DNA of 64,000 nucleotides from Exiguobacterium acetylicum. GTDB lineage: Bacteria; Bacillota; Bacilli; Exiguobacteriales; Exiguobacteriaceae. Below, piece after piece: positions 5,074-64,000 of the stretch; the stretch's first letter is position 1; every line of letters begins with the position of its first letter. The notes under the pieces were generated by a model, which was not told the DNA's origin, made no database searches, and worked only from the letters and a program-made list of their open reading frames with translations. The translations under genes were made by a program, and so were the position numbers. The stretch is taken from contig NZ_CP081879.1 in the NCBI RefSeq assembly GCF_022170825.1, positions 1 through 64,000 of the forward strand. Reading direction: 5' to 3'.

Positions 5074-5085
5074 TGGGGTGAGAAT

Positions 5086-7731: not shown

Positions 7732-7745
7732 AGTATGGGAATTTC

Positions 7746-46433: not shown

Positions 46434-49400
46434 TTATTTTTTGATTACAATCTTGGTCTCTCTCGTCAGATAAGAACTCTTCGTAGATACTAGATACAAT
46501 ACCGCACCCTTCTTCTGACGCTGGATTTTCATTTTAAAGTTTCCTTTGTTATCTACTGTCGTCTTCGCGATGGTCTGTCTCGTTACTGACTCGAGGACGA
46601 TCGCGGCCCCAGGCGTCCCGGTACCAGTGATGATTGATGACTTCGTCGTCAGCTCTGATACCTTCAATGTTTGCACACCCTTCACTCGTACTGAGATGAG
46701 TTCAGATTGATTCCCAGATGAATCCTTCGCATACACACTGATTTTCGTGTTGATTTTCAGAGGCTTGACTTTAAATGAAAATTTCCCATTCTTATCCGTC
46801 TTCGTAGTAAGTGTCTTTTCGCCGATAACGATATAAATCTTTGACTCTTCATTGGTCGAACCTGACAAGGTCGTTGATTGGGTCGTGACCGTCGTCATTG
46901 TCGGTTTCTTAGGTGGTATGATATCTTTCGGATAGACTCGTCCCGTCGTACTCAAACCAACCAGGTCCGTTATCCGGAACGACCATGTGGCTTTGAGGTC
47001 GACAGGTTCAGCAACTTGGTAGTAAATATTTCCGAACTCATCCGTATTACCTCTGAATACGACTTTTCCATTCTTCATCAATTGTAAGCTTGCATAAGGC
47101 TCGACCCGAGCAAAGAATACATATTTACCCTTCACTCTATGATCGCTATTGTCGAAATATAATCTCGCCGGCTTAGCCGGCGGGGTCGTATCCGAGAACT
47201 TTTGGACGATGTCCTCAATCTTCTCGCCTTTCGCTGAGACGACTTGGAACTTGACCAACTCATGATTTTTCAACGAACGAGGTAAGGAGTAGGACTTACT
47301 ACTCCTGTTCAAATCAATCTTTCTCTCGACATTATCCAAAATCATATATATTCCGATGGGACCAGGATTCATTTTGTCCACATTGGTTTTTATGGTCACA
47401 GTCTTCCGATCGCTTTTCAGGGAGATGGATTTGATTCCCAGAACCAATCGTTCCATGATAACTTTTTTGTTACCTGATTGACCATCTTGTAGTTCTACTC
47501 GAACCTTCTGATCTAATTTCATTTTATCAACGCCAACATCAAAAGTACCGTCATCCTTAATCGTACCGTAGAAAATTTTTCCTTCTATTTCAACAATTAC
47601 TTTCGTATTGATTTGTCCCTTTCCCCTTACATGAGTATCATTGACTAAAGGAGCATCAATTTGTGGATTCATGTCGAAGGGCGTGACACTGTATGGTTCT
47701 GATACATTACCTGCATGATCGATTGCCGTTACTTCTGCTTTAACTATATCAGAAGAAAAAGTTATACCTCTTAACCAAAATCCGTGTACAGATTCGTAAT
47801 CAGATACTTCATCTATTTCTTCCCACTCATTCGTTCGTCCATCCCGATATATGATTTTTATTTTTACTCTTGCCAAATCCTCTGGTTTATTGATTAGTTT
47901 AGATACCTTAAGAGTGAGAATACGATCTCCATACTTAACAGGTAAAATCGAGATAGCCGGTGGAGTTACATCACGAATTTTTAATTCTTCATACATGATA
48001 TTATTACCGCTAATTTTTAGACCCAACTCATTCGGAAAACTGAAACCTTCCGCCAATGCGCTTGAATAATCAATTGTGAATTCTCCATGGCCATCACTGG
48101 TCGTCTCAAGTTTTTTCATTTCGCGGTCTTTATAAGATGTTATGAATATTTTTGCTGATGGTATCGTTCTACCCGTCACTTTCATCGATTCTTCTGTAAG
48201 GTCATCTAAATCGATAGCAGGAATGGTTCCTTCTACAGTCTGAGACTCGATTCCCGTCGGTGATATAGTTTTTAATATGATCTTATCTTCTTTTTCGACC
48301 CCTATCACATCGTATTGGAAAGACGAAGGATATTCTTCTTTGAAAAATTCGAAAGTACCATCTGGGTGCATCACGGTGACTTGCGTACGAAGAGGACTTC
48401 CGCTGAAATCTCCCTTATACACCGTCAACTTCCCTGACCGGTAGATATAGGTCGGGATAGGTGGTCTACGTACATCCTTTATCTCCTTCGTGCCAACGTG
48501 TTCGTAGTTCGCCGTCCCATTCTTCCGTGAGACGAAGACGCTGAACGTTCCAGCGATTGTCTTCGGATACTTCACTTCGAAACGACCTTCTTCATCCGTC
48601 TCGGTTTGCATAATGTAGTTGTCCCTCGGAGAGGAGAATCGGATTTTCACGTCCGCGAATCGTTTATCGATTTTTCCCTTCAGTACGTCTGAATCGCTCG
48701 TCGGGTTCGTCCATTCTACTTGATGATTCCCTGATTCGTCCTTTGTTTGATAGACTTTAAACTTTTTCTTATAGTCTGTCACGGCATTCTTCTTCATCAT
48801 GATTTCAATCGTTTTCGCATCCTCAGCCAATTCTCCACAATCGAATCGACCATCACCTTGAACAGGAGAACACTTTCTGATTTCTCCATTTTGGACGATT
48901 TCGATTTCGTTCCCTGGAATCGTATAACCTGTCACTCGTTCGTCAGATGTGACGAACTCTTTCGATAAGATCAACGGTTCCGTACCACTCAACACAGGAA
49001 CTTTCAGTTCGTATGTCTTCTTGAGCGCATCAGGTAGCGCTACACCTTCACCGACTTGAAGAGACAGGTTGAACGTGACCTTCTTCTGTTGATTGATCAG
49101 TTCAATCGGATAGTCAAGTCGCGCGTCGAAGTCTCCATCTTCATCGCTCAATATCGTCTGATATCGAGGTAGATAAGTGTCATCCGCATAGGTGACAGTG
49201 ATTTTAGTATAGGGTACAGTATTTCCTTTCAGATAGTATCTCCCGACTTCACTCGCCTGCAGGGTGAAGGGGATGACCGGCTTCTCGCCCAATATGATTT
49301 CTTTTGTCTCACTCTTGATTCCAAAGTAGGAGGAATACACGTATGCTCTGTCCACGCCAGACATTTCCGGAAGACTGACAGAACCCATACCCTCGAAAAG

Positions 49401-49811
49401 GTTACCACCAGCTAATAGATGTGTCTCTGAATCTGGCAAGACCGAACGGAACAGCGATTCCTTCCCATTCCTACCTAAATAGAGTGGTGGGGCGAACGCA
49501 TTCCCTTTCGGGACAATCGATTGGCCCGCGTCGTAAAAACCATCTTTTTTCTTACTCTTCAAAAAGAGTGCCTCATGACCAGCAGTGGATGGCAGGTCAA
49601 ACTTGAAGCCACCATCTGATTTAGCGGTCGTACTCAGCCACGCCCCTCGATGCAGCAGCATCAGTTCTTGTCCGGGTTCAGCAGTCCCGACGACTTGTCT
49701 GTCCCCCGCCATCACTTCCGAATGATTAAGTTCTGCCCTTACTTGATCCGGCATTGATATGGTCAATATGTAAAGAACCAATGCGACGATCATATAATTC
49801 ATCTTTTTCAT
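46434..49811 (-). CDS. Large secreted Ig-like repeat protein
   Basis: A 1125-aa exported protein. Its signal peptide is KKMNYMIVALVLYILTISMP with cleavage near VRA-EL. The mature part is a string of beta-sandwich modules of about 85-100 residues, each with a G-T-PG or V-G-T-PGA pattern. The C-terminal two (about 960-1125; TVTTQSTTLSGSTNEES, SELTTKSSIITGTGTPGAA) are clearly Big_6-like and resemble the end of the 713-aa protein at 24405. No LPXTG anchor or transmembrane segment is present. A GTG four codons upstream is possible, but AAAGGTGA is better spaced for the ATG at 49811. It is probably a surface or matrix protein, unrelated in function to the defence genes around it. Confidence 0.82.
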   Translation of the reverse strand: MKKMNYMIVALVLYILTISMPDQVRAELNHSEVMAGDRQVVGTAEPGQELMLLHRGAWLSTTAKSDGGFKFDLPSTAGHEALFLKSKKKDGFYDAGQSIVPKGNAFAPPLYLGRNGKESLFRSVLPDSETHLLAGGNLFEGMGSVSLPEMSGVDRAYVYSSYFGIKSETKEIILGEKPVIPFTLQASEVGRYYLKGNTVPYTKITVTYADDTYLPRYQTILSDEDGDFDARLDYPIELINQQKKVTFNLSLQVGEGVALPDALKKTYELKVPVLSGTEPLILSKEFVTSDERVTGYTIPGNEIEIVQNGEIRKCSPVQGDGRFDCGELAEDAKTIEIMMKKNAVTDYKKKFKVYQTKDESGNHQVEWTNPTSDSDVLKGKIDKRFADVKIRFSSPRDNYIMQTETDEEGRFEVKYPKTIAGTFSVFVSRKNGTANYEHVGTKEIKDVRRPPIPTYIYRSGKLTVYKGDFSGSPLRTQVTVMHPDGTFEFFKEEYPSSFQYDVIGVEKEDKIILKTISPTGIESQTVEGTIPAIDLDDLTEESMKVTGRTIPSAKIFITSYKDREMKKLETTSDGHGEFTIDYSSALAEGFSFPNELGLKISGNNIMYEELKIRDVTPPAISILPVKYGDRILTLKVSKLINKPEDLARVKIKIIYRDGRTNEWEEIDEVSDYESVHGFWLRGITFSSDIVKAEVTAIDHAGNVSEPYSVTPFDMNPQIDAPLVNDTHVRGKGQINTKVIVEIEGKIFYGTIKDDGTFDVGVDKMKLDQKVRVELQDGQSGNKKVIMERLVLGIKSISLKSDRKTVTIKTNVDKMNPGPIGIYMILDNVERKIDLNRSSKSYSLPRSLKNHELVKFQVVSAKGEKIEDIVQKFSDTTPPAKPARLYFDNSDHRVKGKYVFFARVEPYASLQLMKNGKVVFRGNTDEFGNIYYQVAEPVDLKATWSFRITDLVGLSTTGRVYPKDIIPPKKPTMTTVTTQSTTLSGSTNEESKIYIVIGEKTLTTKTDKNGKFSFKVKPLKINTKISVYAKDSSGNQSELISVRVKGVQTLKVSELTTKSSIITGTGTPGAAIVLESVTRQTIAKTTVDNKGNFKMKIQRQKKGAVLYLVSTKSSYLTRETKIVIKK

Positions 49812-50163
49812 GATTCCATTCACCTTTCTCGTTCGAATACATGCTTCGTTTCATCTTCTTTTCAAAGCCGTAAGATGCTTCAGAAAAAATAGAGACAAAA
49901 TACGGAACACATCAAAATCAATCATAGTATTTTTTCTTTAAATTTCCTTTTTTAACAAAATATTTTATTTTTCGATTTAGAGTATACTTTAACTTGATAA
50001 AGAACAGTCAAGTGACACACGAGGGCACGACTAAAAAATGAGGATGTATACTTTCGACGTCGAAAGTATACATCCTCATTGGTCGTCCCTGAAAAATCAT
50101 CCGAACCTTACTGGTTTTCTTTGAAAGATTTGAACCATATGTTTTTCCCTTTTGGGGCGTCGC
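49812..50163. other. AT-rich intergenic region with palindrome copy E
   Basis: It holds the upstream region of the large Ig-like gene and the palindrome at 50037-50080. No coding frame is supported. Confidence 0.5.
50037..50080. repeat. 44-bp perfect palindrome, copy E of the TTTCGACGTCGAAA-core family
   Basis: AATGAGGATGTATACTTTCG and its exact complement flank the centre ACGT. There is no loop. It stands about 80 bases after the SUKH gene, so it probably terminates the long defence operon, and it precedes the Ig-like gene's upstream region. Confidence 0.9.
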
Positions 50164-50589
50164 CTAGATGACTGGCTCGTAGAAGACGTCCAGATACTCA
50201 TCGAAGGAACTCGTGATTTCTTCCTCGGTCTGTGCCTCCTCGTCCCAGAACACGACGGCCGGTACATCGAGTAGCGGATCATAGTATAGACAGATATAGT
50301 TACCGAACTGATCTATCATGAAGGGATAATAGTCATGCGGTAGCCTCTGACGCATGTTCGCCGTCGTGTCCCATATGTTGTCGATGGACGAAGGATTGAA
50401 GGAAAGTAGCGATTTGGCCACTCGTTCCTTCGTCACCCTCGTGTCGAACACGTTGGGCCGTGGACGACCCCCGTTGTGCTCACGTATCAAGGCAATCAGA
50501 CGTGAGGGAAGCTCTATCCCATACTTTTGCTCATAATCACGGATGTTCTCCTCTGATTCCAATGGTTTACTCAGGATCCATTCCATCAT
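50164..50589 (-). CDS. SMI1/KNR4 (SUKH) family protein, probable immunity protein
   Basis: A 141-aa protein of the SUKH superfamily. It has EENIRDYEQKYGIELPSRLIALIREHNGG at the N-terminus, then FMIDQFGNYICLYYD and VVFWDEEAQ, and a C-terminal helix SFDEYLDVFYE. SUKH proteins are common immunity partners of polymorphic-toxin nucleases. It begins 11 bases after the WHH nuclease gene, so it most likely inhibits that nuclease. AGGAGGTGA precedes two adjacent ATGs. It is the last gene of the long coupled operon. Confidence 0.92.
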   Translation of the reverse strand: MMEWILSKPLESEENIRDYEQKYGIELPSRLIALIREHNGGRPRPNVFDTRVTKERVAKSLLSFNPSSIDNIWDTTANMRQRLPHDYYPFMIDQFGNYICLYYDPLLDVPAVVFWDEEAQTEEEITSSFDEYLDVFYEPVI

Positions 50590-50600
50590 GTCACCTCCTA

Positions 50601-51143
50601 TCATCTATAGAACTTACCGCCACCCCAGATGGAGCGTCCACCGGTATGGGCAGTCTGTTCATGTATCGTACGGTCGACGAGTTGCAGCACTCCCGGATTC
50701 TCGGCATGATGCCAGACCATGCCTTCAGGCGTATCCCCCGCGGCAATCTGTCGCTTCTGCTCTTCCGTGAATCGTCCACTCAGTTCGGGATTCGTCCGGA
50801 TTTTCTCCGCCAATTGTCCGTTCGCCTCCTTGAACTGCCTCGCGTCACTCGACAGATATCCACTCTCGTCGAGCTTAGCGTCGAAATGACTCTCGAAGCT
50901 AGGGAACACTCCCTCTCGTTTACTACCGTCGTTCATCTCGACGCTCCTGCTCACGAACGGTACACCACTGACTTCATGGAGCTTCCCCGCCAAGGATTCG
51001 TTCCGACATTTGATGTACGACGTATCGTAATCCTTGTATACGTTCTCCGAGAACGTCGTCCTCGGGAGGTCCGCCTTTCCCTCGAACCCTGACTTCTCCC
51101 TATAGGAATCCAATTCGTCGAACCGGATTTCATTCAATCGCAT
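50601..51143 (-). CDS. HNH/Endo VII nuclease of the WHH toxin family
   Basis: A 180-aa protein. The C-terminal ~60 residues carry the WHH-type HNH signature: GDTPEGMVWHHAENPGVLQL, the later His in DRTIHEQ, and TAHTGGRSIWGGG. The N-terminal part (SGVPFVSRSVEMNDG, then FPSFESHFDAKL) resembles the lead-in of stand-alone WHH toxins. No signal peptide or secretion domain is fused, so it acts in the cell or needs a partner. The ATG at 51143 lies 4 bases after the HerA stop and uses GGGTGAG; an ATG at 51155 would overlap HerA. It would cut DNA nonspecifically unless restrained by the SUKH protein next to it. Confidence 0.9.
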   Translation of the reverse strand: MRLNEIRFDELDSYREKSGFEGKADLPRTTFSENVYKDYDTSYIKCRNESLAGKLHEVSGVPFVSRSVEMNDGSKREGVFPSFESHFDAKLDESGYLSSDARQFKEANGQLAEKIRTNPELSGRFTEEQKRQIAAGDTPEGMVWHHAENPGVLQLVDRTIHEQTAHTGGRSIWGGGKFYR

Positions 51144-51147
51144 CTTC

Positions 51148-54100
51148 TCACCCATCCTTTCTTTCCAGGTACGAGAACCATTCTTCATAGAAGGAGACGT
51201 GCTCCTCGTGCAAGGTGCAATAATGTAGGAGGAGCGGCTGCTGTACCAAGGACTTGGTCCGTTCTCCTTTGACATAGAAGGAAAGGCTTCTCTGGAACCT
51301 CTCGTCGAATTGTTCGAGCGTGTCCGCCCCCATGGAATACGTCATGATTTCATCGAGAGGAACGACCGTCGCGATTACCTCTCCTACGAATGCTTCTTCC
51401 ATGTCCTCGAACAGCCGTCCATCCGGATTCGTGCGTATTTTAGAAATCAATCGTTCCTTCAACCCTGATCGTACGTTCATCTCACGGTTGACGTCTTCGA
51501 GCAAGGACTGACGGTCAGGACGCTTCGCTAGGAGATTTTCGAGGAATCTCGTCACACGTTCACGTCTCTGGGACAGGCTCGCACGTTTATCATAGGCATA
51601 GGAGAACCCGGATTTGATTGCGTGCTCTGAAATCTTTCCTAGTATCGGTTCGAGCCAATCGTTCTGATAGACGACGGCGACGCCCGTCTCTAGTTTCGAT
51701 ATTTCTGACGTCTGGTGTTCATCAAGTCCTATCGAGGAGCCGACGAGCTGACGATCCATCGACTCCGGCAATCTCATGATGATTTTGGTGTTGGTGTTAC
51801 GAATCGCCGATGGATCGAGGAGGCTCGGTGATTGATCGACGAGGATGAATCCTTCGCCGAGCGAGCGCATCTCGGCGATGCCGTTCGATATCATCTCCAC
51901 GGACTTTCCTTGTACGTTACTCCCTTCGGCCGACTGTTCGACGGATGTTCGTCTCAGTAGATGGTGTGCCTCCTCGAGTACCGTGACGTGCCGCAATCGA
52001 TTCCCTAGGACGTTAGAATGGTGTAGACGATGCTCTTGTAGTCGGATGAAGAGTAGACCCATCAAGAGTGATTTGGACTCGCTGGAACCGACCATGCTCA
52101 GGTCGATGATGCAGTTCTCATCGAACAACTTCTCTGACGATACCTCGTCCGAAACCAATATCTTGCTCAACTGTCCGAGCGCAAGTGAGTTCACGCGCGT
52201 GACGAGCGCTCCGGTATAGTTCCCCTTCACCTCGCTCGAATAGCGTGATCGTTCGATGACCTTCGGTAGGACCTCGACGAGGTCCGTGACGGTGGGAAAG
52301 GTCGGCTTCCTATCAAAACAAATCGAATGTTCGAGGTTCCATCCACTCTCCACATAGATGCGTTCAATCGATTCACGAAGGATGGCGGGCATCGCGTCGT
52401 ACATCGGCCAACAGGCGTTGAAGATTTCCACGAGCCGGTCGATGTGTTCGAACACGTGTACCGTCTCCGGGAAATAGAATGGATTCAGACGAAGGAGCGG
52501 TGTATTCGCTTGGTTCGTACCGAAGACATTCACGTCATCCCGGTCACCGAAGACATGCTTGTACTCACCCTTCGCTGGTTCTATGACCAAGTATGTCACT
52601 TCATTCTTTTTCAAGTTCTCGAGCAATCCGTAGACGGTATTCGACTTTCCTGATCCTGTCGAACCCGTGATGAAGGTATGCATGGAAAGGCTCTCGACGT
52701 CGAGCGATAAACTGGTCTCGTAGACGTCACCCATATGATAGACGTGTCCGATGTCGATGCTTCTCCCGAAATCTCTCTTGTTGAGATAGGATACGTTCCG
52801 GCCGAACTCAGCCATCTCGATGACCGGGAGGCCAGGCGTCGATTTCCGGGGAAGGGTGAGTGCCAACGCTAGCTCCTTCGTATTGATGAGCGCTCCACTT
52901 GAGAGATTGAGCTGATAGACATCCGGGCTCTTGAACAGAGGGTGCTCTAGTCTCTCGAGCGACCCCATGATGTTCCTTGCATCGGGGTGGTTCGACGGCC
53001 AGATGGAAATCGCCGATCCCTCTATAGAGGAGTCCTCGCCTCTAACGAGCGACTGATAGTTCGCCGCGACGATCCTAGCCGTCTGCTCGTCCTTCGTCAC
53101 GAAATAGGCTGCGAAGTTCCATAGTCCGATGTCGGAGGCGACGTGCAGACGGTCGAGATGTTTGTCCACTTTCTTGAGTATCTCGTCGACTTGTTTGTTC
53201 CCGACCTCGAATTGAACGCTTATTGACTCACCTCTCGATATAGTCTGGCTACTTGATTGGCTGGTGCTCTCCGATTTCGAGCTTCCTTCCGTCTCACTCG
53301 TCCCCTCCGTGTTACTGCTGGTGTTCGAATAACTTACCTCAAGAGCTCCTACAGAAATCCCTCCCCCTAAAGTATGACTCGATGTATGTGATTGGGTCTT
53401 TGCCAAGCTGACGTTGAAGGTATCCGTCAACCCCTTGCTCGTACCCTCGCTCAATCCTTGGCTCTCGTTCCTTCCACTCGAGTACGTAGCCTTCCGTAAT
53501 CCGGATATCGCAGTATGCATCTCCTCGAAGCCTTGGCGCATCTCGAGGATTTGCCCAGCTGAGATAGCTTGCGCAAGGAAGATGGCACTGAACTCCTCAC
53601 CATGCATCGCATTGATGAGTCGTTCCAGTCCTCTTATGTCATGGTCGTCCCGTAGGTCCTTCAGGGAGGGGACGCCTGTTACGCACGAGACCGTCAAGCT
53701 ACTCGAATTCTCCACGTCGAAGATTCTGCGCGTCATCTCATGATATTCAGAGTTACGTACTTGAGTAGTCCTCGTACCAGGGAGGTTCCCCTTCATGCTT
53801 TTGAGCAATCCGTCCTTGACGGAGGACGCGGAAAAGTCCTCGTCTGTCTTCGTCCCAATATAGAATTCGATTTCGTGGCCATCGCTATGAATCATTATGC
53901 AGATGTTCCCCTTTGTGGTCCCGACCGCATTGAAGATGTTGATCAGTTTCTCCAGGATGCGCTCTTCCTTCTCGTAGACGATTTTATCGATACGGACTAG
54001 ACGTATCCGCTGCATGGCGTCTTCGAGAGACTCGTCAGTTGTCGAGACCAGATCAAATTCCGTGAGACGGTGTAGATAATTCTTGTCCATCACGTCCTTC

Positions 54101-54153
54101 GATATCGCCAATAGGTTTTCTGCCGATTCGTTCATTATGACTAAATCCTTCAT
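51148..54153 (-). CDS. HerA-type ATPase with Ser/Thr-rich linker
   Basis: A 1001-aa protein. The N-terminal ~220 residues are an unassigned mixed domain. Residues about 224-310 are low-complexity Ser/Thr/Gly/Glu (SSHTLGGG, SNTEGTSETEGSSKSES). A HerA/FtsK-like motor follows: Walker A ITGSTGSGKSNTVYG (about 495), IEPAKGEYK, Walker B VTVLEEAHHLL (about 726), and the sensor region GFILVDQSPSLLDPSAIRNTN. HerA motors are hexameric DNA translocases that usually work with a nuclease. The ATG overlaps the TGA of the 660-aa gene (ATGA), and the WHH nuclease gene follows at once. This places HerA at the centre of the operon. I know no named defence system with this gene set. Confidence 0.88.
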   Translation of the reverse strand: MKDLVIMNESAENLLAISKDVMDKNYLHRLTEFDLVSTTDESLEDAMQRIRLVRIDKIVYEKEERILEKLINIFNAVGTTKGNICIMIHSDGHEIEFYIGTKTDEDFSASSVKDGLLKSMKGNLPGTRTTQVRNSEYHEMTRRIFDVENSSSLTVSCVTGVPSLKDLRDDHDIRGLERLINAMHGEEFSAIFLAQAISAGQILEMRQGFEEMHTAISGLRKATYSSGRNESQGLSEGTSKGLTDTFNVSLAKTQSHTSSHTLGGGISVGALEVSYSNTSSNTEGTSETEGSSKSESTSQSSSQTISRGESISVQFEVGNKQVDEILKKVDKHLDRLHVASDIGLWNFAAYFVTKDEQTARIVAANYQSLVRGEDSSIEGSAISIWPSNHPDARNIMGSLERLEHPLFKSPDVYQLNLSSGALINTKELALALTLPRKSTPGLPVIEMAEFGRNVSYLNKRDFGRSIDIGHVYHMGDVYETSLSLDVESLSMHTFITGSTGSGKSNTVYGLLENLKKNEVTYLVIEPAKGEYKHVFGDRDDVNVFGTNQANTPLLRLNPFYFPETVHVFEHIDRLVEIFNACWPMYDAMPAILRESIERIYVESGWNLEHSICFDRKPTFPTVTDLVEVLPKVIERSRYSSEVKGNYTGALVTRVNSLALGQLSKILVSDEVSSEKLFDENCIIDLSMVGSSESKSLLMGLLFIRLQEHRLHHSNVLGNRLRHVTVLEEAHHLLRRTSVEQSAEGSNVQGKSVEMISNGIAEMRSLGEGFILVDQSPSLLDPSAIRNTNTKIIMRLPESMDRQLVGSSIGLDEHQTSEISKLETGVAVVYQNDWLEPILGKISEHAIKSGFSYAYDKRASLSQRRERVTRFLENLLAKRPDRQSLLEDVNREMNVRSGLKERLISKIRTNPDGRLFEDMEEAFVGEVIATVVPLDEIMTYSMGADTLEQFDERFQRSLSFYVKGERTKSLVQQPLLLHYCTLHEEHVSFYEEWFSYLERKDG

Positions 54154-56132
54154 GTCCCATCTCCTCTCTCTGATGCGAGATTCGGTCTCAACTCGATGAC
54201 GGACGATAGCATCTTCTGCATGGCGTCTATCCATTCGAACTGCCTCGTCAATTCCTCTATGTTTCTAAGGTCTGACTGACGCTTCTTTTCAGATAAGCTC
54301 GTACCGGCCTCGAGTCTCTGTACGACTTCCTCCGCCTTTCGTAGTTCCCTTATCAAATATGTCTTGAATGCATCTTCTAACGATTCGATAAATCTCGCGG
54401 CTTGTCCATACGTATCTCGGACCTTTTTACCGACGTTCTCTTGATACGTCTTGAACGACTCGTCCTTGAATGAACGCATGGAGCCCTCATAGGCCAATAT
54501 TTCATCGAACGGCCGTCTCCAAGAACCGAACAAGTTCCACGAGGCGGTTTCAGTCGCGGGTTTCAGAAGTAATCGAGCTCTCGGCATGCCATCGCTTGCT
54601 TTGTGTTCCTCAATCAGGATTTCAGGAATCTCGAACCTTGAGCGCCAGGCCGAGGTCGACGAATTCAGTTGTTGAGTACCAGGGATGTCGTTCACGAGAT
54701 GGATATACTTTTCAACATCCCGCTCGAAACGCTCACGGAACAAGGATGCGATTTCATACTCGATGCCCGTGACGGCATCGAGTTGTAGGTTCTGCAGCTC
54801 GAGATTCGCGCACTCCACTAACTCAATCATCCGAAATATGTTCGTCTTCCTCGGCACACTTTTGGCGTCTTCTATACTTCTATCGTATCTACGCAATACG
54901 GTCGCCATCCTCGATTCGAAAGGGTTCGCGGTATCCACTCTGCGATTGACGTCCAACATCGCTTTCAGATGCCCTTCTATGGCACGGGCGTAGGCGAATT
55001 CCTGCTGCGACTTCTCGATGCGTTCGTCACTTTTGAAGAAGAGGACATCCTTCTTGATGCCAGTAATTCGCTCTTCGACGTCATCATGCGCGACTCGGAG
55101 TCTTGTCTCCAAAGTTTTGAACAAACTTAAAAAGTCGACATCCCGTTCTTGAGTAGCGTACCTTTCCAACGCAGCGAATATGACTCGCTCATCGATTGAT
55201 TCATCACGAATGTTCCAATCTCTCTCTTCTTCGTCCACCTTTTTTGTTCGGAAATGCTCGTCACCCTTCTCATCTCTCCAGTGATGGTTCATGTTTGTGA
55301 GAAGTCTCGAGAACAGACCACCCTTCTTGTTCCCGTTCACCTCTGTGCTTCCAACGATGGCTTCTCCGACTTCGTTCCCCTCGTACTTCTCGACCGGGCG
55401 TTCCGTTTTCGCACTCCCGAGTACGATACGTTCCACCCTGTTCGCCGTCTGTCCAGTTCTGCCATTGATTTTTCTTGAGACAATCTCGAACGTCTCATCC
55501 TCTGCTTCCTCGTCAGTGAAGTAGATCACCTGACGTGGCACTTCCTTTCTCGGGTTCCATGATTCGAGCAAGTCGATGGAACGGATATGATTAAAATGGA
55601 TGTATCCACCGTCCATACTCCTCTTCATCGAAGTCATGTATGGTACATGACTTTCATCGGTCGTCGCGGTCTCAAACAACGACTTGAAAAGCTCTATCTT
55701 TACTTCGTCGAGATTCGTGATGACCAACGTCCGAAGGTTTGCATCCGATACCCTCTCATGGCCTAGCCCGCTCTCGTCGATTCGTAAGGACTCTACTGGA
55801 CCCTCCTTGAGTTGATTGAGGATTTCGCGAATCATCATTATCCTCTCATCGTCGTCCATTATCTCTTCGTGAAAGACGTCCACACCTTGATATCGATTAC
55901 TGATGATTTTCAGATGATCATAGTCAGTTTTCTTCCCGAGGAAACGTAAACTGAACGTCTCTTCGTTCAGTTCATCGATGAGATAATCAATCACTTCTCC
56001 GTACCATTCGTCGAACGGTTTGAACTGGAACCTCGAGAGCTTAGAGTCCTTCATCAAGTCTCTCCTCATGTAGTTGATTTTCGTAATCCTATCGTAGGGG
56101 TTATGCGACATCTCTACCATCCGCATGGACAT
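54150..56132 (-). CDS. Protein of unknown function coupled to HerA
   Basis: A 660-aa soluble protein, highly charged, which I do not recognise. Residues 1-~230 are mixed alpha/beta (FKPFDEWYGEVIDYLIDELN, HFNHIRSIDLLESWNPRKE). A charged linker lies about 240-300. The C-terminal ~350 residues are mostly long helices with coiled-coil character (VFFKSDERIEKSQQEFAYARAIE, SFKTYQENVGKKVRDTYGQA). No Walker, nuclease or methylase motif is seen. AAGGTGG precedes the chosen ATG. It follows the AddB-like gene after 81 bases and overlaps HerA by 4 nt, so equal dosage with HerA is expected. It may be a structural or loading partner of HerA, which is inference. Confidence 0.75.
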   Translation of the reverse strand: MSMRMVEMSHNPYDRITKINYMRRDLMKDSKLSRFQFKPFDEWYGEVIDYLIDELNEETFSLRFLGKKTDYDHLKIISNRYQGVDVFHEEIMDDDERIMMIREILNQLKEGPVESLRIDESGLGHERVSDANLRTLVITNLDEVKIELFKSLFETATTDESHVPYMTSMKRSMDGGYIHFNHIRSIDLLESWNPRKEVPRQVIYFTDEEAEDETFEIVSRKINGRTGQTANRVERIVLGSAKTERPVEKYEGNEVGEAIVGSTEVNGNKKGGLFSRLLTNMNHHWRDEKGDEHFRTKKVDEEERDWNIRDESIDERVIFAALERYATQERDVDFLSLFKTLETRLRVAHDDVEERITGIKKDVLFFKSDERIEKSQQEFAYARAIEGHLKAMLDVNRRVDTANPFESRMATVLRRYDRSIEDAKSVPRKTNIFRMIELVECANLELQNLQLDAVTGIEYEIASLFRERFERDVEKYIHLVNDIPGTQQLNSSTSAWRSRFEIPEILIEEHKASDGMPRARLLLKPATETASWNLFGSWRRPFDEILAYEGSMRSFKDESFKTYQENVGKKVRDTYGQAARFIESLEDAFKTYLIRELRKAEEVVQRLEAGTSLSEKKRQSDLRNIEELTRQFEWIDAMQKMLSSVIELRPNLASERGDGT

Positions 56133-56213
56133 ACCACCTTCACCTTCATCTATTTGATGACTTTTCTTTTGATGTATTTTACCCTCTCTACACATTCTAG
56201 GTTATTAAAAATT

Positions 56214-58874
56214 TTACCGGGTGTTGACATGTGCATCTCGACAAATCATTTGATAAGGACAGTATTTACAGTGTTCACTAGGGCTAGCTTTCACCTCGAC
56301 ATTATCGAAGTCTTCTGCTTGGAATTTTTTTCTGTCCTTATTTTTTTTACTTCCGAATACAGTAAGATTTTGCTGTCTATCCGGATATCTTATGCCGTCC
56401 AACCATACGTACCCTGGATCATAAGGATCTTCCGCTGATAACCAGTAAGCATCATGATGGTCCCTGCTCATTTGTTTTTCCATGTCCGTCAAATGAGGGA
56501 AGGCTCGGGATACTAAACTAAATCTAGCATCCAATGCTCCTCGTGATTTTTCCTTACCATAATGAAGCAAGTTTTCGAAGGTGAAGCCTCCGTGAAAACC
56601 TGACTCGAAGACTGGTCTGTCGTTCAAGAGAAAACTGTATAGTGCTCGTCTCTTACATCTAAGATAGGTCTCATGTTGCATGATGTGAAAGACTCTTTCA
56701 TGATAGTCAATCCTCTTGGTAGCATATCCTCCGTCTCCATCACTCGATAAAGAATCCACGCCTTCGATTTTGGGTGGACGACTCGTCTTCAATCCCATGA
56801 GCTCGAGATAATACGAAGGAGACAGACCTTTTTCTTGTCCCACCTCCTGGATGAACGAGAATTTGATATGCACGGCATGACACATCATGATGTAGAAAAG
56901 ATAGCATGCGATTTCGAACTCAAGTTCTTTTTTCATCTTCAGTTGCCGTAGATTTACATTATTTCGGAAGAGCTCGTCATAGCTTTCTTTCTTCAAGGGC
57001 CAGAGGTTAAGTGACTGTGTATAAGGAAAGGCTTTTTGATCCATCAAACAAAAATGGATGTTACGGTTTATATCGAATTGTAGCCCATCACTGTTCAACA
57101 TCGGGCTGACTACTGAATTAGTCGTGGCCCGATGTCCACCTCGCATTTCTGCAGCATATTCGTCTTCATGTGGAGTCCCTCCAAGGAAGAAGTTCAATCC
57201 TTTTAGAAGGTCTTCACGTTGCACGATTTCTATCGGACTATCTTTGAGGTCGTCCAATGCTTCACGTACTGATTCGACGATTCTCTTGTCCGCCTCTTGC
57301 GTAATATGAGGCAGTATCTCTGATTGGATATGACCATCGAGTAATTCGACATACGATTTGATATCCACCTTCCCTACCTCTTTCATCTTCCCTTCGTTAC
57401 TATTGAATAGTTTCTGATACAAAGTTTCTATCGCCTGCATCCCTTCGATGATGCCATCGATTTCCTCATCCTGTACTGAAAGATGTCCGATGGACTCGAA
57501 GGGATGGTTGTACATATGATGATCTTTCAGATTTCGTTCATTCTTCTGCCTTCTCTCGAAATCAGGGATACCGAATTCCTTCGTGAGTACTTTTCGCTGT
57601 TCCTTGATTTGTCCTAGTTCTTCATACCATTGCTCGAATGATGCATTTTTTTCAATCAATGGTGAAATTCTTCTGAGCCCGGTCAAATAGATTTTGGAGG
57701 ATTTTCCTTTCACTAGTAAGAAGCCAGAACTAAAAATCCGTTGAAGTAAGTCAGCCGTCACTTCATCAGTATTCTTGTACTCCCCATCTACGACATCATA
57801 CCTCCCTACGTTCAGGCGATGTATATCTAGCAGGAAACTACCGAACGGATATCGTGAGAGTTGAAGTTCCCGAGGACTATCTGGATCTTCCATGTATCCC
57901 TTCAATGTACCAGCCCTCGGGGATACGAGGACATGATCCTCGTCAGCGATATATTTTCTGAACTGATATAGATTGGTGAAGCGATAGATGTCTCCTTCGA
58001 CCTCATCATCGAACATACCATTCAAGATGCCTAAAAAATTCTTCGCATGAATGTTGATCGGGTAGTTATGACGGAGCGCTTTGACATGGGTCGTGTTCTT
58101 CATGTCTAAGAATTTCTCCACGGGTTCGAAGCCTCTCTCATAACCTTCTATATAGTTCACGACATGTATGACTTCAATCCACTCGCTCAATCGATCGAAA
58201 ATCATTTTCTGTATGGGCATCAGGAAGTAGAAACCATGAAGGACGATTACTTTCCTACTCCTGAACAAATGTTTTACAATATGTTTCGCTTCCGATTGTC
58301 TCTCATTATCGACTCTATTTTCCTTCCCCTTGTCTACCAGTTCTACTAAAGCATCCTCGAATACGTCGAGAGTCGTATCCGAAAATCCGTCAATCCAATC
58401 ATCGAACTTCTTGAACACCTCTAGTCGTTCCATCTCCTTGACGGCATAATAAAACGTCTGCTCTTCGTCAGAGGCAGTAGCGAGTGCGGATAGATTTCTT
58501 GATGTGATTCCACTCTCTCGAAGGAAGCGGATAGTAGAAAGGACGGTCTCTTGGTCCTTGTCTATGGCCCCATGCATCGGATGATGTCTTACTTTTTCCT
58601 CGTCCGAGAACTGATGGAGTACTTGTGAGAGGATTGTATACTGGTGGAGCTCCGTCGATGGAGCGAACCAACCATCACCGATCGTCTGAGACAGTTCAGA
58701 GAAAGAATATACTTCGTCCCCTATCCATTTACGAAAGTCATCATTATTGTTCACGATACCTTGCTTCAAAGAGTTAGTCGCGGTTATGTGTATCGCATCA
58801 CGATAAGGCGAAAACTCAGAATCTGGATGCATCAATTGATCCGCTGTCTCATAGGTGATTATCTTGTACGGCAT
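56214..58874 (-). CDS. AddB-like helicase-partner with Fe-S cluster motif
   Basis: An 886-aa protein. Its overall layout recalls AddB/RexB: a long N-terminal helicase-like region without Walker A (KVIVLHGFYFLMPIQKMIFDRL), and at the C-terminus the Cys pattern C-x2-C-x5-C (EHCKYCPYQMICRD), with an earlier Cys in TYLRCKRRALYSFLL. These four Cys match the AddB iron-sulfur cluster. Between them only ~130 residues are present and I see no D...ExK nuclease triad, so the nuclease domain seems lost or reduced. The ATG at 58874 follows GAGGAGG and overlaps the helicase gene by 26 nt. It likely forms a heterodimer with that helicase. Confidence 0.75.
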   Translation of the reverse strand: MPYKIITYETADQLMHPDSEFSPYRDAIHITATNSLKQGIVNNNDDFRKWIGDEVYSFSELSQTIGDGWFAPSTELHQYTILSQVLHQFSDEEKVRHHPMHGAIDKDQETVLSTIRFLRESGITSRNLSALATASDEEQTFYYAVKEMERLEVFKKFDDWIDGFSDTTLDVFEDALVELVDKGKENRVDNERQSEAKHIVKHLFRSRKVIVLHGFYFLMPIQKMIFDRLSEWIEVIHVVNYIEGYERGFEPVEKFLDMKNTTHVKALRHNYPINIHAKNFLGILNGMFDDEVEGDIYRFTNLYQFRKYIADEDHVLVSPRAGTLKGYMEDPDSPRELQLSRYPFGSFLLDIHRLNVGRYDVVDGEYKNTDEVTADLLQRIFSSGFLLVKGKSSKIYLTGLRRISPLIEKNASFEQWYEELGQIKEQRKVLTKEFGIPDFERRQKNERNLKDHHMYNHPFESIGHLSVQDEEIDGIIEGMQAIETLYQKLFNSNEGKMKEVGKVDIKSYVELLDGHIQSEILPHITQEADKRIVESVREALDDLKDSPIEIVQREDLLKGLNFFLGGTPHEDEYAAEMRGGHRATTNSVVSPMLNSDGLQFDINRNIHFCLMDQKAFPYTQSLNLWPLKKESYDELFRNNVNLRQLKMKKELEFEIACYLFYIMMCHAVHIKFSFIQEVGQEKGLSPSYYLELMGLKTSRPPKIEGVDSLSSDGDGGYATKRIDYHERVFHIMQHETYLRCKRRALYSFLLNDRPVFESGFHGGFTFENLLHYGKEKSRGALDARFSLVSRAFPHLTDMEKQMSRDHHDAYWLSAEDPYDPGYVWLDGIRYPDRQQNLTVFGSKKNKDRKKFQAEDFDNVEVKASPSEHCKYCPYQMICRDAHVNTR

Positions 58875-61800
58875 GTCGTGTCCTCCTCGCCATCTTGAGT
58901 AAGTCTCGCCAAGTATTAGGACGCGACCCCCATTGATTTTTGTCATCGATTCCATAAATGAACAATCGTTCCTCGGCTCTTGTCATCGCGACATATAGAA
59001 GACGAGTCTCCTCGCGAATTTGCTCAAGGTCCTCTTCGCTTTTCAGTTTTTCGTAGCCTAAAGTCTCATAGTCGAGTACAACCCGGTCATCTACATATCT
59101 TTTATATTTCCAAGCAAATTCGATTTTGCCCGAAGGAGATACGTATACGATTGTGTCCTTGATGTCCCCCTCACCTGAACGCACAATGGGATTCTTCGTA
59201 AAAGGAATCATGACGGTATCGAACTGAAGACCTTTCGCCCTATGCACAGTCAGGACACGGACGAGATTGCCATCAAAACTGTTATCGTCTAACTCCGCTT
59301 CATCAGAATCCCTATTCGTCGCGACTTGCATCTCTAGCCATTCATGAAGTGTAAGTAAATCAAGAGGTCCATCAGCGAATGTTTCGTGAATGAGCATCAT
59401 GATTTTATGGAGGTTCAGCTCGTATTGTAGCGTGTCTGCCATTGACAGACCGGCTTCTCGTAGATGTGTTTTGTAATTCGACTTGTCAATGAACGAGTCG
59501 AGCACAGAAAGTAATGGGCTGTATTTCAACCTTTCAAGTGATTTGGTCCATGATTCATGAATGGATAATTCAGTGGAAGAAGAAGAAATATAGATGTCTC
59601 TCTGAATAAGCTTCCTTTTGAAAACCGGATAGGAAGAGAGGCCTGAGAATGCGGTGGTCGAAAGGGAATAGAGTACATCTCGCTGCTCAGGATAAATCCA
59701 AGAGTTGATGAGAATCATCAAATCACGAGCCGCGTATGATTCGAACAACGTCCCGTCCATACGTACCTCAAGATTCTTGATGTCTCCATCTTTCCGAATC
59801 ATTTCTCCAATATCTCTAGCCTCTCCGTTCCTACGGACTAGAATAGCGAGGACCTTGCCTCCCTTTTCCTTATCGCCTCGAGTGATTTCGTTCAATCTAA
59901 GTTTGATTTCTTCTACGTCGATATCCTCTGATTTTAAGAACATAGTGTTTCCCGTCAGTCGCGTCTCCTTGTTCGAAACCATCCTGTCCTCCCCAGGCGG
60001 AAGTAGTTGGGAGGGACTTTCCCGCCAGACAGAAAAATGACGTTCCATTTGTTCCACGAGCAGACGGCTGGACCTGAAGTTCTCATCTAGTCGATAAGTG
60101 ACACACCGCCCTAGTTTTTTGAGGCTCATCGTTTCATCGAGGACCGTGAAGGCAGAGGAGTCCGCTCCCCTAAACCGATAGATACCTTGCTTTACATCTC
60201 CTACGGCGACGAGCCGGATGTCGGTCGCTGTGATGATACTTACGATTGATTGAATCTGCGATACGTCCGTATCTTGGAATTCGTCGACAAACAAGTAACG
60301 ATATCTATCAGACAATTCCTCGAGCGGCGCATCTGACTCATAGATTTTTTTCATGAATCTAGTCAAATCAGAAATTCCTATCACGTCATTCTCCAACTTT
60401 AACTGGTAGAGTTCTTCATCCGCCTTCATCAGGACGTCAATCACTGATTTCGTGAAATCTGATTCATCAGGATTCATAGATACGCCAGAGAAATCCTCGG
60501 AGACCACACCCTTTTGTTCGAACTTGTCCCATACGGTTTCTAGGAATTCCCTCACCTCGTAGTACCACATACCCTCGAAGGGGTTCGCTATCGATTTTTC
60601 TTGAAGTACTTCGTCGAACGTTCTTTTGACCATCCTTCTACGCTCCATCGTCATCTGAGAGACTCGAAAACCTCCTCCCAATCCAAGATGTTGACCGAAG
60701 GACGTCAGAATTTTCTTCGCGAATGAAGGTATGGTCAGGATATCCATCCGTCGCAAGTCATTGATGTGTTTCATGTACTTCGGATCGCCAGTCAATTTGA
60801 GTCTTTCGACGAGTCGCTCAGCTAGTGCTTCTTCCATATTATTGGCAGCCTCGTTCGTGAAGGTGATCATGGCAATTTGATCAAGACCATCAATCACCCC
60901 CATGTCAAGGAGATACATGATACGGGCAATGAGAGTGGTAGTTTTACCACTCCCTGCCCCGGCATTGATGGCGATGTGTTCAGTATGACTGGCATGCTCC
61001 ACGATATACTGATTGTAGTTGAACCCCTTGGATCGATGTCCGTACATCTTGAGGTAGTCCTCCTTGCCCTTGAGGCTCGTCTTACATCCATCGACAATTT
61101 GAAATGGCGTGATTCCGGGAACATCGACGGGTATGTGATGGACGATCACTCCACTCTTACGAATCTCATCAAGTTCTGAAGCATTCACTTTTCCACCGAA
61201 TACGATAGAATGTGACGCCATTGTCGTCTCCGGGGTCGCAACTGGAGTTAATACCTGTTCGGGCGGAGTCATCATCACGAACCGATCTACATCCAATTCA
61301 GGCCGTAACCTCTGATCAGGTTCATCCTGTTCATAACGGAAGAGACTCATCACTTCGTTTATGTCTTCTTGTCCATAAAGTGAAAGTGGAGATCCTCCCG
61401 CATCTTTATAGATATATCGCCCCTTCAACGGAAGAGCATGGAGAGGATATGCTAAAGTAGTGCCGGCATTGAATCGGCCGATAGTAACTATCTTGGTGTT
61501 CACATAGGTCTCATCTCCAGAGAACAATTGTAAGCCTATCGACACGCCGTTCTTCGTTATAAGTACGTCACTCTTAACCAGAATATCGTGGTCGAAACTC
61601 ATCTTCACCTCATCGAATTGTCCTGATTCTCGGAGCAGGAAGTAAAAATGTATCTCGGTCAAGAGCGACTTATATGCAATGTTAGCCTGGATTCTCGCAG
61701 AGTCTTTATCCTTCCTCGGGAAGTACTTCTCTGAAAAAGTCCTACTGTAATCATCTACAGATGGAACACGTCTTTCCTCGAGTATCCTCGTGTACAACTC

Positions 61801-61941
61801 CGTCGTGTAGAGTGGCGCGCTTCGATTGACCGTCCCCCTTAATTTGTATGGATGTGACGGTCTTATATAAGAGTTCACTAGTAGGTCATATACGTTTTTC
61901 GAACTACCGATGATTCCTAGAACTTCATTCATATCAATCAT
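58849..61941 (-). CDS. UvrD/AddA-like superfamily 1 helicase with novel N-terminal domain
   Basis: A 1030-aa protein. SF1A motifs are complete: Walker A INAGAGSGKTTTLIAR (about 325), Ia AMITFTNEAANNM, II YLFVDEFQDTD (about 552), III VAVGDVKQGIYRFRGA, V VLTVHRAKGLQFDTV, and VI LLYVAMTRAEERLFI. The first ~310 residues are not part of the helicase. They hold a segment TEIHFYFLLRESGQFDEVKM, then SDVLITKNGVSIGLQLFSGD, which could be a PD-(D/E)XK-like fold, but this is weak. The C-terminal nuclease domain of true AddA is absent. GGAGGAG precedes the ATG at 61941. It heads the coupled operon of six genes. Confidence 0.9.
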   Translation of the reverse strand: MIDMNEVLGIIGSSKNVYDLLVNSYIRPSHPYKLRGTVNRSAPLYTTELYTRILEERRVPSVDDYSRTFSEKYFPRKDKDSARIQANIAYKSLLTEIHFYFLLRESGQFDEVKMSFDHDILVKSDVLITKNGVSIGLQLFSGDETYVNTKIVTIGRFNAGTTLAYPLHALPLKGRYIYKDAGGSPLSLYGQEDINEVMSLFRYEQDEPDQRLRPELDVDRFVMMTPPEQVLTPVATPETTMASHSIVFGGKVNASELDEIRKSGVIVHHIPVDVPGITPFQIVDGCKTSLKGKEDYLKMYGHRSKGFNYNQYIVEHASHTEHIAINAGAGSGKTTTLIARIMYLLDMGVIDGLDQIAMITFTNEAANNMEEALAERLVERLKLTGDPKYMKHINDLRRMDILTIPSFAKKILTSFGQHLGLGGGFRVSQMTMERRRMVKRTFDEVLQEKSIANPFEGMWYYEVREFLETVWDKFEQKGVVSEDFSGVSMNPDESDFTKSVIDVLMKADEELYQLKLENDVIGISDLTRFMKKIYESDAPLEELSDRYRYLFVDEFQDTDVSQIQSIVSIITATDIRLVAVGDVKQGIYRFRGADSSAFTVLDETMSLKKLGRCVTYRLDENFRSSRLLVEQMERHFSVWRESPSQLLPPGEDRMVSNKETRLTGNTMFLKSEDIDVEEIKLRLNEITRGDKEKGGKVLAILVRRNGEARDIGEMIRKDGDIKNLEVRMDGTLFESYAARDLMILINSWIYPEQRDVLYSLSTTAFSGLSSYPVFKRKLIQRDIYISSSSTELSIHESWTKSLERLKYSPLLSVLDSFIDKSNYKTHLREAGLSMADTLQYELNLHKIMMLIHETFADGPLDLLTLHEWLEMQVATNRDSDEAELDDNSFDGNLVRVLTVHRAKGLQFDTVMIPFTKNPIVRSGEGDIKDTIVYVSPSGKIEFAWKYKRYVDDRVVLDYETLGYEKLKSEEDLEQIREETRLLYVAMTRAEERLFIYGIDDKNQWGSRPNTWRDLLKMARRTRHAVQDNHL

Positions 61942-62173
61942 GTTGATTTCTCCTCCTACAATATTGCTGCCCTTACGCCCAATCACATAATCAACTTCGT
62001 AGGAACGGGTACTGGGTCTATCTCTACATACAATTTTATCCTAATCAGACGAATAAGACGATTTTTTCTTGATTTACATGGGCAATATTAGAAACAATTG
62101 GATGATTCTATTCTTATGATTCGAGAATTCGATGTATGAACCTTTTCAGTAAAGATTAGGATGAACGTCAAAA

Positions 62174-62209
62174 AGCGATCCCGTGTCTTCTCGCAGGATC
62201 GCTGATTTT
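62174..62209 (-). terminator. Terminator between the EVE-led trio and the helicase operon
   Basis: AGCGATCC and GGATCGCT form an 8-bp stem. On the minus strand it is followed by TTTTTGACG. The helicase operon therefore needs its own promoter in 61942-62170, where none is clear to me. Confidence 0.75.
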
Positions 62210-62233
62210 TTAATCGTATAACATGTCTTAATT

Positions 62234-62752
62234 TTATTTTAGATTGATACGACCATCTGGACCGTCGACCCGGACACAACATGACAGTACATGCTTATTG
62301 ACCGCCATCTTCCAAGCCCCCATCCGAGAGTGCCAACTCTTCAGTTCCAAGAAGGTGGTCCAATCCATTTCGTATACTCCGGCCAACGTATAATCCTTGT
62401 TCAGACTCACGAGTATCAGATGGTCGAAGAGCTGTTCCTCTTCCTTTTCCTCCCCAGGTGCATTGAGTCCATAGAACACACCGGTCGACGTACTCGTGAC
62501 CGTCTTCACGCTATATCTCCGACCATCCTGGCTCGTCGCATCGAAGTGCTTCATGCTGATACGAGAGATTTCGAGGTCCGGGAACGATGGATTGTCACGA
62601 TACGTCTCTACTGCATAATATTCTCCGACCTCACCTACGATGTTCCGCGTGCGGACGATCCCCCTCGTCTTCATCTCTTCATACCATGCACCGTACAATC
62701 TTACCAAATCGCCATCTTCCATCCTTTTCAGACAATCAACCATGTCCTTCAT
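62234..62752 (-). CDS. PD-(D/E)XK-like protein, candidate restriction-type nuclease
   Basis: A 172-aa protein. The pattern NIVGEVGEYYAVETY, then SRISMKHFDATSQDGRRYSVKTVTS, fits the E...D...xVK layout of small PD-(D/E)XK proteins related to Mrr/DUF6998-type endonucleases. The E in VGE, the D in HFDA and the K in VKTV would be the active site. The C-terminal part (FDHLILVSLNKDYTLAGVYEMD) is typical of these proteins. AAAGGA precedes the ATG. It lies 54 bases after the 117-aa gene and ends before a terminator. Assignment is from pattern only. Confidence 0.6.
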   Translation of the reverse strand: MKDMVDCLKRMEDGDLVRLYGAWYEEMKTRGIVRTRNIVGEVGEYYAVETYRDNPSFPDLEISRISMKHFDATSQDGRRYSVKTVTSTSTGVFYGLNAPGEEKEEEQLFDHLILVSLNKDYTLAGVYEMDWTTFLELKSWHSRMGAWKMAVNKHVLSCCVRVDGPDGRINLK

Positions 62753-62806
62753 GAAGTCCAGTCCTTTCCATTTCGGTTATCTACTTCGAATATATGCTCG
62801 ATATCG

Positions 62807-63160
62807 TCAATCAATTCCATGCTCCATCTTGAAGTAGGTCTTTCCTCTAGCATGTGGATATTTCCCGAAGTACCATTCCTCTGGACGGTCCATCATGACC
62901 TTATATAGTATCTGCCCGTAAAACTTCGCGGCCTCAACGTTGTTCTTACGGCAGGCGATCCAAATCGGTTCATACAATGTCCCTCTCCAATCGCTACCCG
63001 GGATCCAACTCGAGGTGTGGACGTCACCACGGTCGATGACCCGGTTCAGCTCCTCGATGATGACTTGATAATCCTGCTGGTCGATGCTCTCCATCCGCTT
63101 CTTGAACTGTGTTTCGTAGGCCACGTGCGTTATCAATTCTCCGTCGATTGTCTTTAGCAT
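62807..63160 (-). CDS. Small protein of unknown function
   Basis: A 117-aa soluble protein with a distinctive core: TSSWIPGSDWRGTLYEPIWI, then AAKFYGQILYKVMM and EWYFGKYPHARGKTYFK. I believe similar proteins occur in other bacterial accessory regions, but cannot name the family. There is no catalytic motif I can point to. It is 52 bases downstream of the EVE-like gene and is very likely co-transcribed with it. Confidence 0.7.
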   Translation of the reverse strand: MLKTIDGELITHVAYETQFKKRMESIDQQDYQVIIEELNRVIDRGDVHTSSWIPGSDWRGTLYEPIWIACRKNNVEAAKFYGQILYKVMMDRPEEWYFGKYPHARGKTYFKMEHGID

Positions 63161-63212
63161 GTTCGCTCCTCCGCTTCCTGATTCATTAGAGTCGTGTCAC
63201 CGATTGCTTCAT

Positions 63213-63863: not shown

Positions 63864-63910
63864 CGATTCCACTCCTTCTCCTCCAGATAGGATTTCCACT
63901 TCATGAACAT

Positions 63911-63939
63911 AGTATAACGGAATGAAAACGAAATTACAA
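63911..63939 (-). promoter_or_regulatory. Promoter of the EVE-led trio
   Basis: On the minus strand: -35 TTGTAA at 63934-63939, exactly 17 bases of spacer, -10 TATACT at 63911-63916. The spacing is ideal for a SigA promoter. Confidence 0.75.
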
Positions 63940-63940
63940 C

Positions 63941-63978
63941 ACCCTAAAACCCTAAGGGTTAAATTAGGGTTTTAGGGT
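63941..63978. repeat. Telomere-like inverted repeat (ACCCTAAAACCCTAA arms)
   Basis: ACCCTAAAACCCTAA (63941-63955) and its exact complement (63964-63978) are separated by an eight-base spacer. The copies lie directly upstream of the -35 box of the EVE promoter, so this is a candidate operator, or the terminator of a gene beyond the window edge. Confidence 0.85.
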
Positions 63979-64000
63979 TTCTAAGAAGGTTCGCTTTTCA

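Follow-up and report, generated by a model that had tools for sequence, protein, structure and literature searches.

A HerA-toxin-immunity operon of Exiguobacterium acetylicum carries a helicase pair where most relatives have dynamin-like GTPases

The first 64,000 bases of C2, a 184,468-bp replicon in a two-contig genome of Exiguobacterium acetylicum (hereafter the window), contain an operon of six open genes on the minus strand, running from position 61941 to 50164. In order of transcription these encode a UvrD-type helicase, an AddB-like protein, a 660-amino-acid (aa) relative of dynamins, a HerA-like ATPase, a WHH nuclease toxin and a SUKH immunity protein; all operon features below lie on the minus strand. 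Every gene starts with ATG, no internal stops were found, and the junctions of −26, +81, −4, +4 and +11 nt are those given by an initial annotation made from the sequence alone. Shine-Dalgarno-like sequences, judged by eye, were clear 5′ of four genes and weaker 5′ of the 660-aa and WHH genes. A terminator-like hairpin of 20 pairs (50080-50037) follows the SUKH gene, and across the region terminator-like and promoter-like sites were no more frequent than in shuffled sequence. The block is retained in Exiguobacterium sp. s193 (locus L009), where DNA identity was 88.7% across window positions 50237-63980. Comparison of the two gave dN/dS values of 0.10 to 0.28 over all six genes; judged by these ratios, the genes are under purifying selection and the block has been kept in two species.

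For the last three genes, the identities proposed in the initial annotation were confirmed by family matches. The HerA/VirB4-type ATPase (1,001 aa; 51148..54153) matched DUF87/HerA (2.6e−14) and carries HerA motifs, the toxin (180 aa; 50601..51143) gave two Pfam matches of the Colicin-DNase/WHH type (7.6e−25 and 2.1e−14) and carries the WHH motif, and the immunity protein (141 aa; 50164..50589) matched SUKH-1 (SMI1/KNR4; 5.7e−21). To place these genes among relatives, a five-sequence HerA profile was scanned over genome contigs and yielded at least 496 HerA relatives; the best 80 of these, six plasmid loci and the window make up the 87 loci compared here, in which the genes of related loci were called mechanically. 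A plasmid search with HerA returned 44 records and led to blocks in E. coli, Lactococcus and Treponema.

With the window set aside, 81 of the 86 loci had, no more than 150 bp downstream of HerA, a gene on the same strand. The toxin position was scanned in 76 proteins (the window's and 75 others, leaving out L007, L008 and four proteins of ≥400 aa): 39 matched WHH, 15 LHH, 8 Endonuclea_NS_2 (NucA-like) and 1 GH-E, while two were transglutaminase-like and one was a glutamine deamidase, one protein being able to match several families in these counts. Second genes (n = 71, the window's and 70 others, leaving out L007, L008, L076 and four of ≥260 aa) included 37 SUKH-1, 16 DUF6985 and 2 YezG-like proteins. 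A profile of the toxin set matched the C-termini of Rhs toxins in the PDB. From these families, the genes after HerA are read as polymorphic toxin-immunity pairs. The constant core of the system is HerA-toxin-immunity, not the helicase pair. Co-occurrence in other genomes, a check proposed in the initial annotation, was found for the HerA-toxin-immunity unit; the helicase pair accompanied HerA only in the window and L009 among the 87 loci and in two of the 38 genomes of the order, the same count as for HerA and the 660-aa protein. The pair, which that annotation had placed at the center, is instead the variable part.

The gene preceding HerA (660 aa; 54150..56132), previously labeled unknown, encodes a dynamin relative without GTPase motifs. 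A profile built from 55 dynB proteins, the window's 660-aa protein not among them, matched both of its ends. The N-terminal "NPY" adaptor domain (55719..56126), common to the dynamins that precede HerA, was matched with E values of 4.8e−21 in the window and 4.6e−23 in L009, and hhalign gave a probability of 97.8% (E value, 1.1e−12); a further match of 98.9% to an NPY profile was discarded, as the window protein was inside that profile. The C-terminal helical stalk (54192..55025) aligned to positions 480-755 of the dynB model (E values, 1e−4 in the window and 6.5e−6 in L009). At the P-loop position, one dynB protein reads ATMSSGKST and the 660-aa protein TNLDEVKIE. Motifs GK[ST] and [NT][KQ]xD, present in 55/55 and 54/55 dynB proteins, respectively, are absent from it, and a G-domain profile gave no match. 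Searches also returned no Pfam family, PADLOC match or plasmid match. A poor structure model (pLDDT 57), which gives no more than a hint, had as its top PDB match a bacterial dynamin pair (E value, 6.5e−4; TM-score 0.21), with an input alignment that included dynamins. The protein is the fastest-evolving of the block, with 71% identity to its L009 counterpart against 80 to 93% for the others, and its dN/dS of 0.28 is still constrained. These matches identify the protein as what remains of a dynamin, with adaptor and stalk kept and the GTPase motifs lost.

The initial annotation had described the first two genes as an AddAB-like pair; the helicase half of that description held, and the AddB label proved weak. 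The helicase (1,030 aa; 58849..61941) matched Pfam UvrD-helicase (1.9e−43) and contains the UvrD motifs. No nuclease family matched, and it is devoid of a C-terminal nuclease domain because only ∼40 aa follow motif VI. Its first 200 aa (61342..61941) form an extension that, by the limits of homology, is foreign to stand-alone helicases: stand-alone UvrDs align to the helicase only from residue 306-307 on. No Pfam or plasmid match was found for its first 320 aa. Among 299 genomes of the phylum, that of the window alone matched the first 200 aa, which are also present in L009. This extension may be a docking domain.

The AddB-like protein (886 aa; 56214..58874) has homologues beside UvrD-type helicases and a weak AddB profile match. 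A motif search identified CxxCx5C at its C-terminus (56241..56270), conserved in L009 and L089, whose cysteines are presumably Fe-S ligands, by analogy with AddB/Cas4. No NCBIfam match was obtained at 0.05, PDDEXK_1 matched below threshold (0.011) over the cysteine tail, and profile-profile comparison with genuine AddB gave an E value of 0.003. In the window genome, the AddB family profile TIGR02773 (E ≤ 1e−3) had a sole match, the genuine AddB on C1, and left the window copy unmatched. Counting the window's own genome, a profile of the AddB-like protein matched four of 398 in the phylum; in two of the other three, which were examined, UvrD and AddB-like genes were found with HerA missing. One match was obtained against plasmids, and a Geobacillus plasmid carries UvrD and AddB-like genes without HerA. 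Locus L076 has a UvrD-type helicase downstream and no AddB-like gene. Stand-alone UvrD and AddB-like genes without HerA lie at L089:9419-16392, L098:6889-13692 and L097:5212-9960, the first two with an additional helicase-like gene; such pairs are possibly undescribed helicase systems.

In most relatives the partner of HerA is of another kind. Dynamin-like GTPases were identified within six genes in 72 of the 87 loci (56 NPY-dynamins with an intact GTPase motif and 16 other dynamins). The remaining loci comprised three with a GTPase-less NPY protein and no dynamin, ten with neither (four of which have <1.3 kb of upstream sequence) and the two with the AddAB-like pair. The E. coli, Lactococcus and Treponema blocks run dynamin, dynamin, small protein(s), HerA, HNH nuclease and immunity gene, the last being SMI1/KNR4 in two and a 125-aa hypothetical protein in Lactococcus. 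A membrane-like segment was present in 48 of 54 small proteins from dynamin loci. At L064:2113-14289, HerA is preceded by a series of genes, and three of the four that were scanned are dynamins; cassettes like it were seen at L051, L054, L065, L073, L074 and L084, most with a gene of look-alike start at the toxin position. In Paenibacillus (L016:14384-17649), a GTPase-less NPY protein and a dynamin with a sub-threshold HTH match follow the immunity gene and do not precede HerA. At L005 of R. albus, a gene with an HD domain and a sub-threshold OB-fold match lies ∼300 bp upstream of a GTPase-less NPY protein. Two DEAD/MZB helicases near L020 were missing among the L024 genes shown and were not counted as parts, and two further genes, one near L055 resembling a thermosome and one near L038 resembling HtpG, were assigned to housekeeping from their starts.

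Viral contigs gave no locus with a single HerA protein as query and seven with a profile. Three of these (L118:7890-17639, L119:7974-17488 and L123:7878-17767, spans that include further genes) combine an Hsp70 (PF00012, <1e−123 in all three) with HerA and a GTPase-less NPY protein (dynB model, 6.6e−9 to 5.6e−18). Each also has an acidic-looking protein of 165 to 183 aa and a TPR protein or look-alike; the TPR scan covered L118 and L123, and the L123 protein also had a sub-threshold DnaJ match. No family matched the last genes of these cassettes, for which "toxin" would be a guess. The Hsp70 cassettes represent a third partner type and thus support the idea of exchangeable partners. No Hsp70-type NPY protein was found at 1e−20 in 398 genomes of the phylum, in a search run without a positive control.

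In the HerA tree, the window and L009 stand beside the dynamin-type locus L010 of Kurthia with support of 1.0 (deeper nodes, 0.70 to 0.96), and outside L009 the HerA nearest to the window's is 48.6% identical. Since the window HerA branches with a dynamin-type locus, the helicase version looks derived. Most simply, the helicase pair would have been acquired by a dynamin-type operon whose GTPase was lost.

The operon could be an intracellular conflict system, probably directed against phages or plasmids, in which a constant effector chassis is joined to an exchangeable sensor; its function is judged from gene content and is given about an even chance. The chassis, evident from its conservation, is the HerA-like ATPase with a toxin, here the WHH nuclease, and its immunity protein. 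The putative sensor would be dynamin-like GTPases in most relatives, often with a small membrane-anchored protein, and the UvrD/AddB-like pair here. The helicase complex may load on free or unusual DNA ends, and the 660-aa protein could link it to HerA as an adaptor, relaying the signal to the HerA ring. HerA might then free the WHH nuclease from SUKH or deliver it, so that DNA would be cut and the cell stopped or killed; release from the inhibitor, as the initial annotation had suggested, is a possible mechanism. In favor of this reading are the McrBC and mREase_II-like genes next to the operon and the WYL-like regulators of related loci: such a regulator was seen upstream of HerA units at 31 among the 63 loci with >8 kb of upstream sequence (identified with a profile of our own; Pfam WYL confirmed the L064 member), and WYL proteins control defense operons.

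A feature of the relatives that would fit such coupling was found in the toxin starts. The first 60 residues of 72 toxins (the 76 minus L044, L053, L076 and L088) were compared in pairs of differing toxin class, the classes being single-linkage BLAST groups (largest, n = 47). With clades cut at 50% HerA identity, the mean local score was 32.3 within clades (81 pairs) and 26.2 between them, and 0 of 1,000 label permutations reached the within-clade value; at 55% the scores were 39.1 (28 pairs) and 26.3. At these cut-offs, the relatives' toxins appear to carry a tag that follows HerA lineage and may serve in docking.

Several observations weigh against the reading as an intracellular conflict system with an exchangeable sensor. 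The tag disappeared at a 45% cut-off, which puts 62 loci in one clade (26.6 versus 26.5). At 50 to 55%, L009 is the sole clade partner of the window toxin, whose start gave its highest score with a protein from another HerA clade (L013), and a tag match is not clear for it. Both genomes with the helicase version are related and count as a single evolutionary event. HerA relatives are sparse, with four of 398 genomes of the phylum, counting that of the window, matching at E ≤ 1e−120, and the E. coli block occurred in one of 5,426 genomes. Neither the window operon nor that of L009 has a WYL-like regulator that could be found next to it. On viral contigs L120 and L121 there are two consecutive toxin-immunity pairs, and delivered toxins often carry such pairs in a row. 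GC content is 0.43 to 0.45 in the UvrD and AddB-like genes, 0.48 in the 660-aa gene and 0.50 to 0.54 from HerA to SUKH, dS is uneven among the genes, and the 81-nt gap, the only sizeable one, falls exactly at the border between the helicase pair and the rest. Because GC differs and dS is uneven, the parts may be neighbors by recombination, which suggests an operon of mosaic origin. Finally, the modeled HerA matches VirB4 as well as HerA, which would fit protein export.

This last point leads to the foremost alternative, toxin delivery in interbacterial antagonism, in which a VirB4-like HerA would export the nuclease, SUKH would protect kin and, in relatives, dynamins would remodel the membrane. 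The HerA model (pLDDT 81.5) had HerA translocases as its best Foldseek matches by E value (4d2i, 8.1e−16). By TM-score, the VirB4 ATPase domain 4ag5, a shorter chain, came first (normalized to target and query, 0.73 and 0.30, against 0.55 and 0.27 for 4d2i), and the model aligned over 900 columns with TrwK/VirB4. HerA contains a Ser/Thr-rich, low-confidence insert (53224..53466); many HerA relatives, not the window HerA, have at this site a hydrophobic Gly-rich stretch, which would also fit export. As a strict marker of dynamin loci, this hydrophobic insert was rejected, since several dynamin loci are without it. The membrane-like segments of the small proteins and the double pairs of L120 and L121 point the same way, as does the polymorphic toxin with immunity gene, the classic pattern of antagonism (PMC3482391). 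However, by simple hydropathy none of the 76 toxin-position proteins has a signal-peptide-like start, extra toxin or immunity genes occur in just five of the 87 loci, no membrane-like segment was detected in the six window proteins, and it is hard to see what a DNA helicase pair would do in export. Delivery is therefore considered unlikely, and intracellular action is favored over secretion.

Ranking behind delivery, and doubtful, is the explanation that two independent systems share one transcript, a stand-alone UvrD and AddB-like pair having been inserted before a HerA-toxin-immunity unit to which it is functionally unlinked. The stand-alone pairs at L089, L097 and L098, the position of the module border and the GC difference speak for it. 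Yet the dynamin is gone from both loci and the adaptor there is GTPase-less, the long N-terminal extension of the helicase is confined to the window and L009, and the whole block is under apparent purifying selection in two species. That the toxin-immunity unit stabilizes a replicon by addiction, while the helicase and HerA serve to repair or segregate DNA, is improbable: the size of C2 in a two-contig genome and the plasmid-like stretches in window 1-25000 fit it, whereas plasmid records match only 2% of window 40000-64000, relatives L062 and L086 lie on records titled chromosome, most relatives have dynamins and not DNA partners, and a separate genuine AddB is encoded on C1.

The initial annotation could name no matching system, and that stands. 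PADLOC returned single generic models (matched singly, without system rules; the best 25 of 56 rows for the helicase and all rows for the other proteins), and no description was found in the PubMed Central literature, searched mostly at the level of titles and abstract starts, with subscription papers and preprints outside. Sir2-HerA (Nezha), HerA-DUF4297 and HerA-NurA likewise place a HerA-type ATPase, with a structural match in the ATPase core, beside an effector, but here the effector is a toxin with an immunity gene, and the 1000-aa HerA has the Ser/Thr-rich insert; no Sir2, DUF4297 or NurA partner was matched in the operon by Pfam, NCBIfam or, among the matches listed, PADLOC. In NCBIfam, HerA scored 50.3 bits with HerA_antiphage (cut-off, 800), 102.7 with a "serine-rich protein" family (650) and 97 with CedD (600). 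Its best PADLOC match was mad8 of MADS (5.8e−19), and no other mad model was found among the matches listed. Polymorphic toxin systems (Rhs, CDI and LXG/T7SS) share the exchangeable WHH, LHH and NucA-like domains and the SUKH and YezG-like immunity proteins; the toxins here differ in being small and free of signal-peptide-like starts, with a constant partner in HerA and a dynamin, helicase or Hsp70. Eleos (LeoA/LeoBC) shares dynamin-like GTPases, and dynamins of related loci matched LeoA/LeoBC weakly (best, 4.5e−14); these profiles did not match the 660-aa protein or, among the matches listed, any other operon protein. To our knowledge, HerA-toxin-immunity is not part of Eleos. AddAB/RecBCD resembles the pair in having a UvrD-type helicase followed by a CxxCx5C protein, and differs by its C-terminal nuclease, AddB profile match and, in this genome, separate genuine AddB. 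GTPase-GAP1 conflict systems (PMC7159879) are similarly gated by a GTPase or Hsp70; no GAP1 match was found in the window operon, and the main text of that paper contains neither "dynamin" nor "SUKH". At L044:456-13171, Hsp70-VWA, fn3-like (sub-threshold) and GAP1-M/N2 proteins lie next to a HerA relative.

More tentatively, the loci may represent an undescribed immunity class spread over several phyla, in which a HerA-toxin-immunity chassis and an NPY adaptor would be combined with interchangeable sensors that monitor the integrity of the cell: its membranes (dynamins), its DNA (an AddAB-like helicase pair) and its protein folding (Hsp70). The window would then be a case of sensor replacement, the old dynamin having been cut to adaptor and stalk. 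If so, bacterial immunity would possess a general effector engine whose trigger changes by the swap of one gene module, with membrane, DNA and protein damage all feeding the same toxin. It would also explain the "ATP-binding protein / dynamin / HNH / SMI1" clusters now annotated piecemeal, to which the HerA relatives counted above, the best 80 of at least 496 examined, belong.

The initial annotation's coupling of a HerA motor to a nuclease toxin and SUKH beside McrBC was borne out, the adjacent genes matching AAA_5 (2.2e−13) and McrC (7.2e−83). Between McrBC and the operon lies a 1,129-aa Ig-like repeat protein (Big_6; window 46434-49823), a place at which L009 differs. Upstream (window 62234-63899) are an mREase_II-like gene (PADLOC, 2.4e−54), a 117-aa protein of no assigned family and a PDC-S02-like protein. 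The EVE label earlier applied there could not be upheld: 63213-63875 gave no Pfam match at 0.001, its matches being limited to PDC-S02 and, weakly, REase_II in PADLOC. On viral contigs L120 (1-13876) and L121 (1-18407), a long dynamin-like gene and HerA precede the toxin-immunity pairs, and both contigs seem to represent one and the same element. C2 itself is probably a plasmid, window 1-25000 sharing its long stretches with Exiguobacterium plasmids. Within that part, a metal P-type ATPase, ArsR and a recombinase (window 4271-7792) are 99.9% identical to sequences on Rossellomorea and Bacillus licheniformis plasmids and, on that identity, are a recently moved element.

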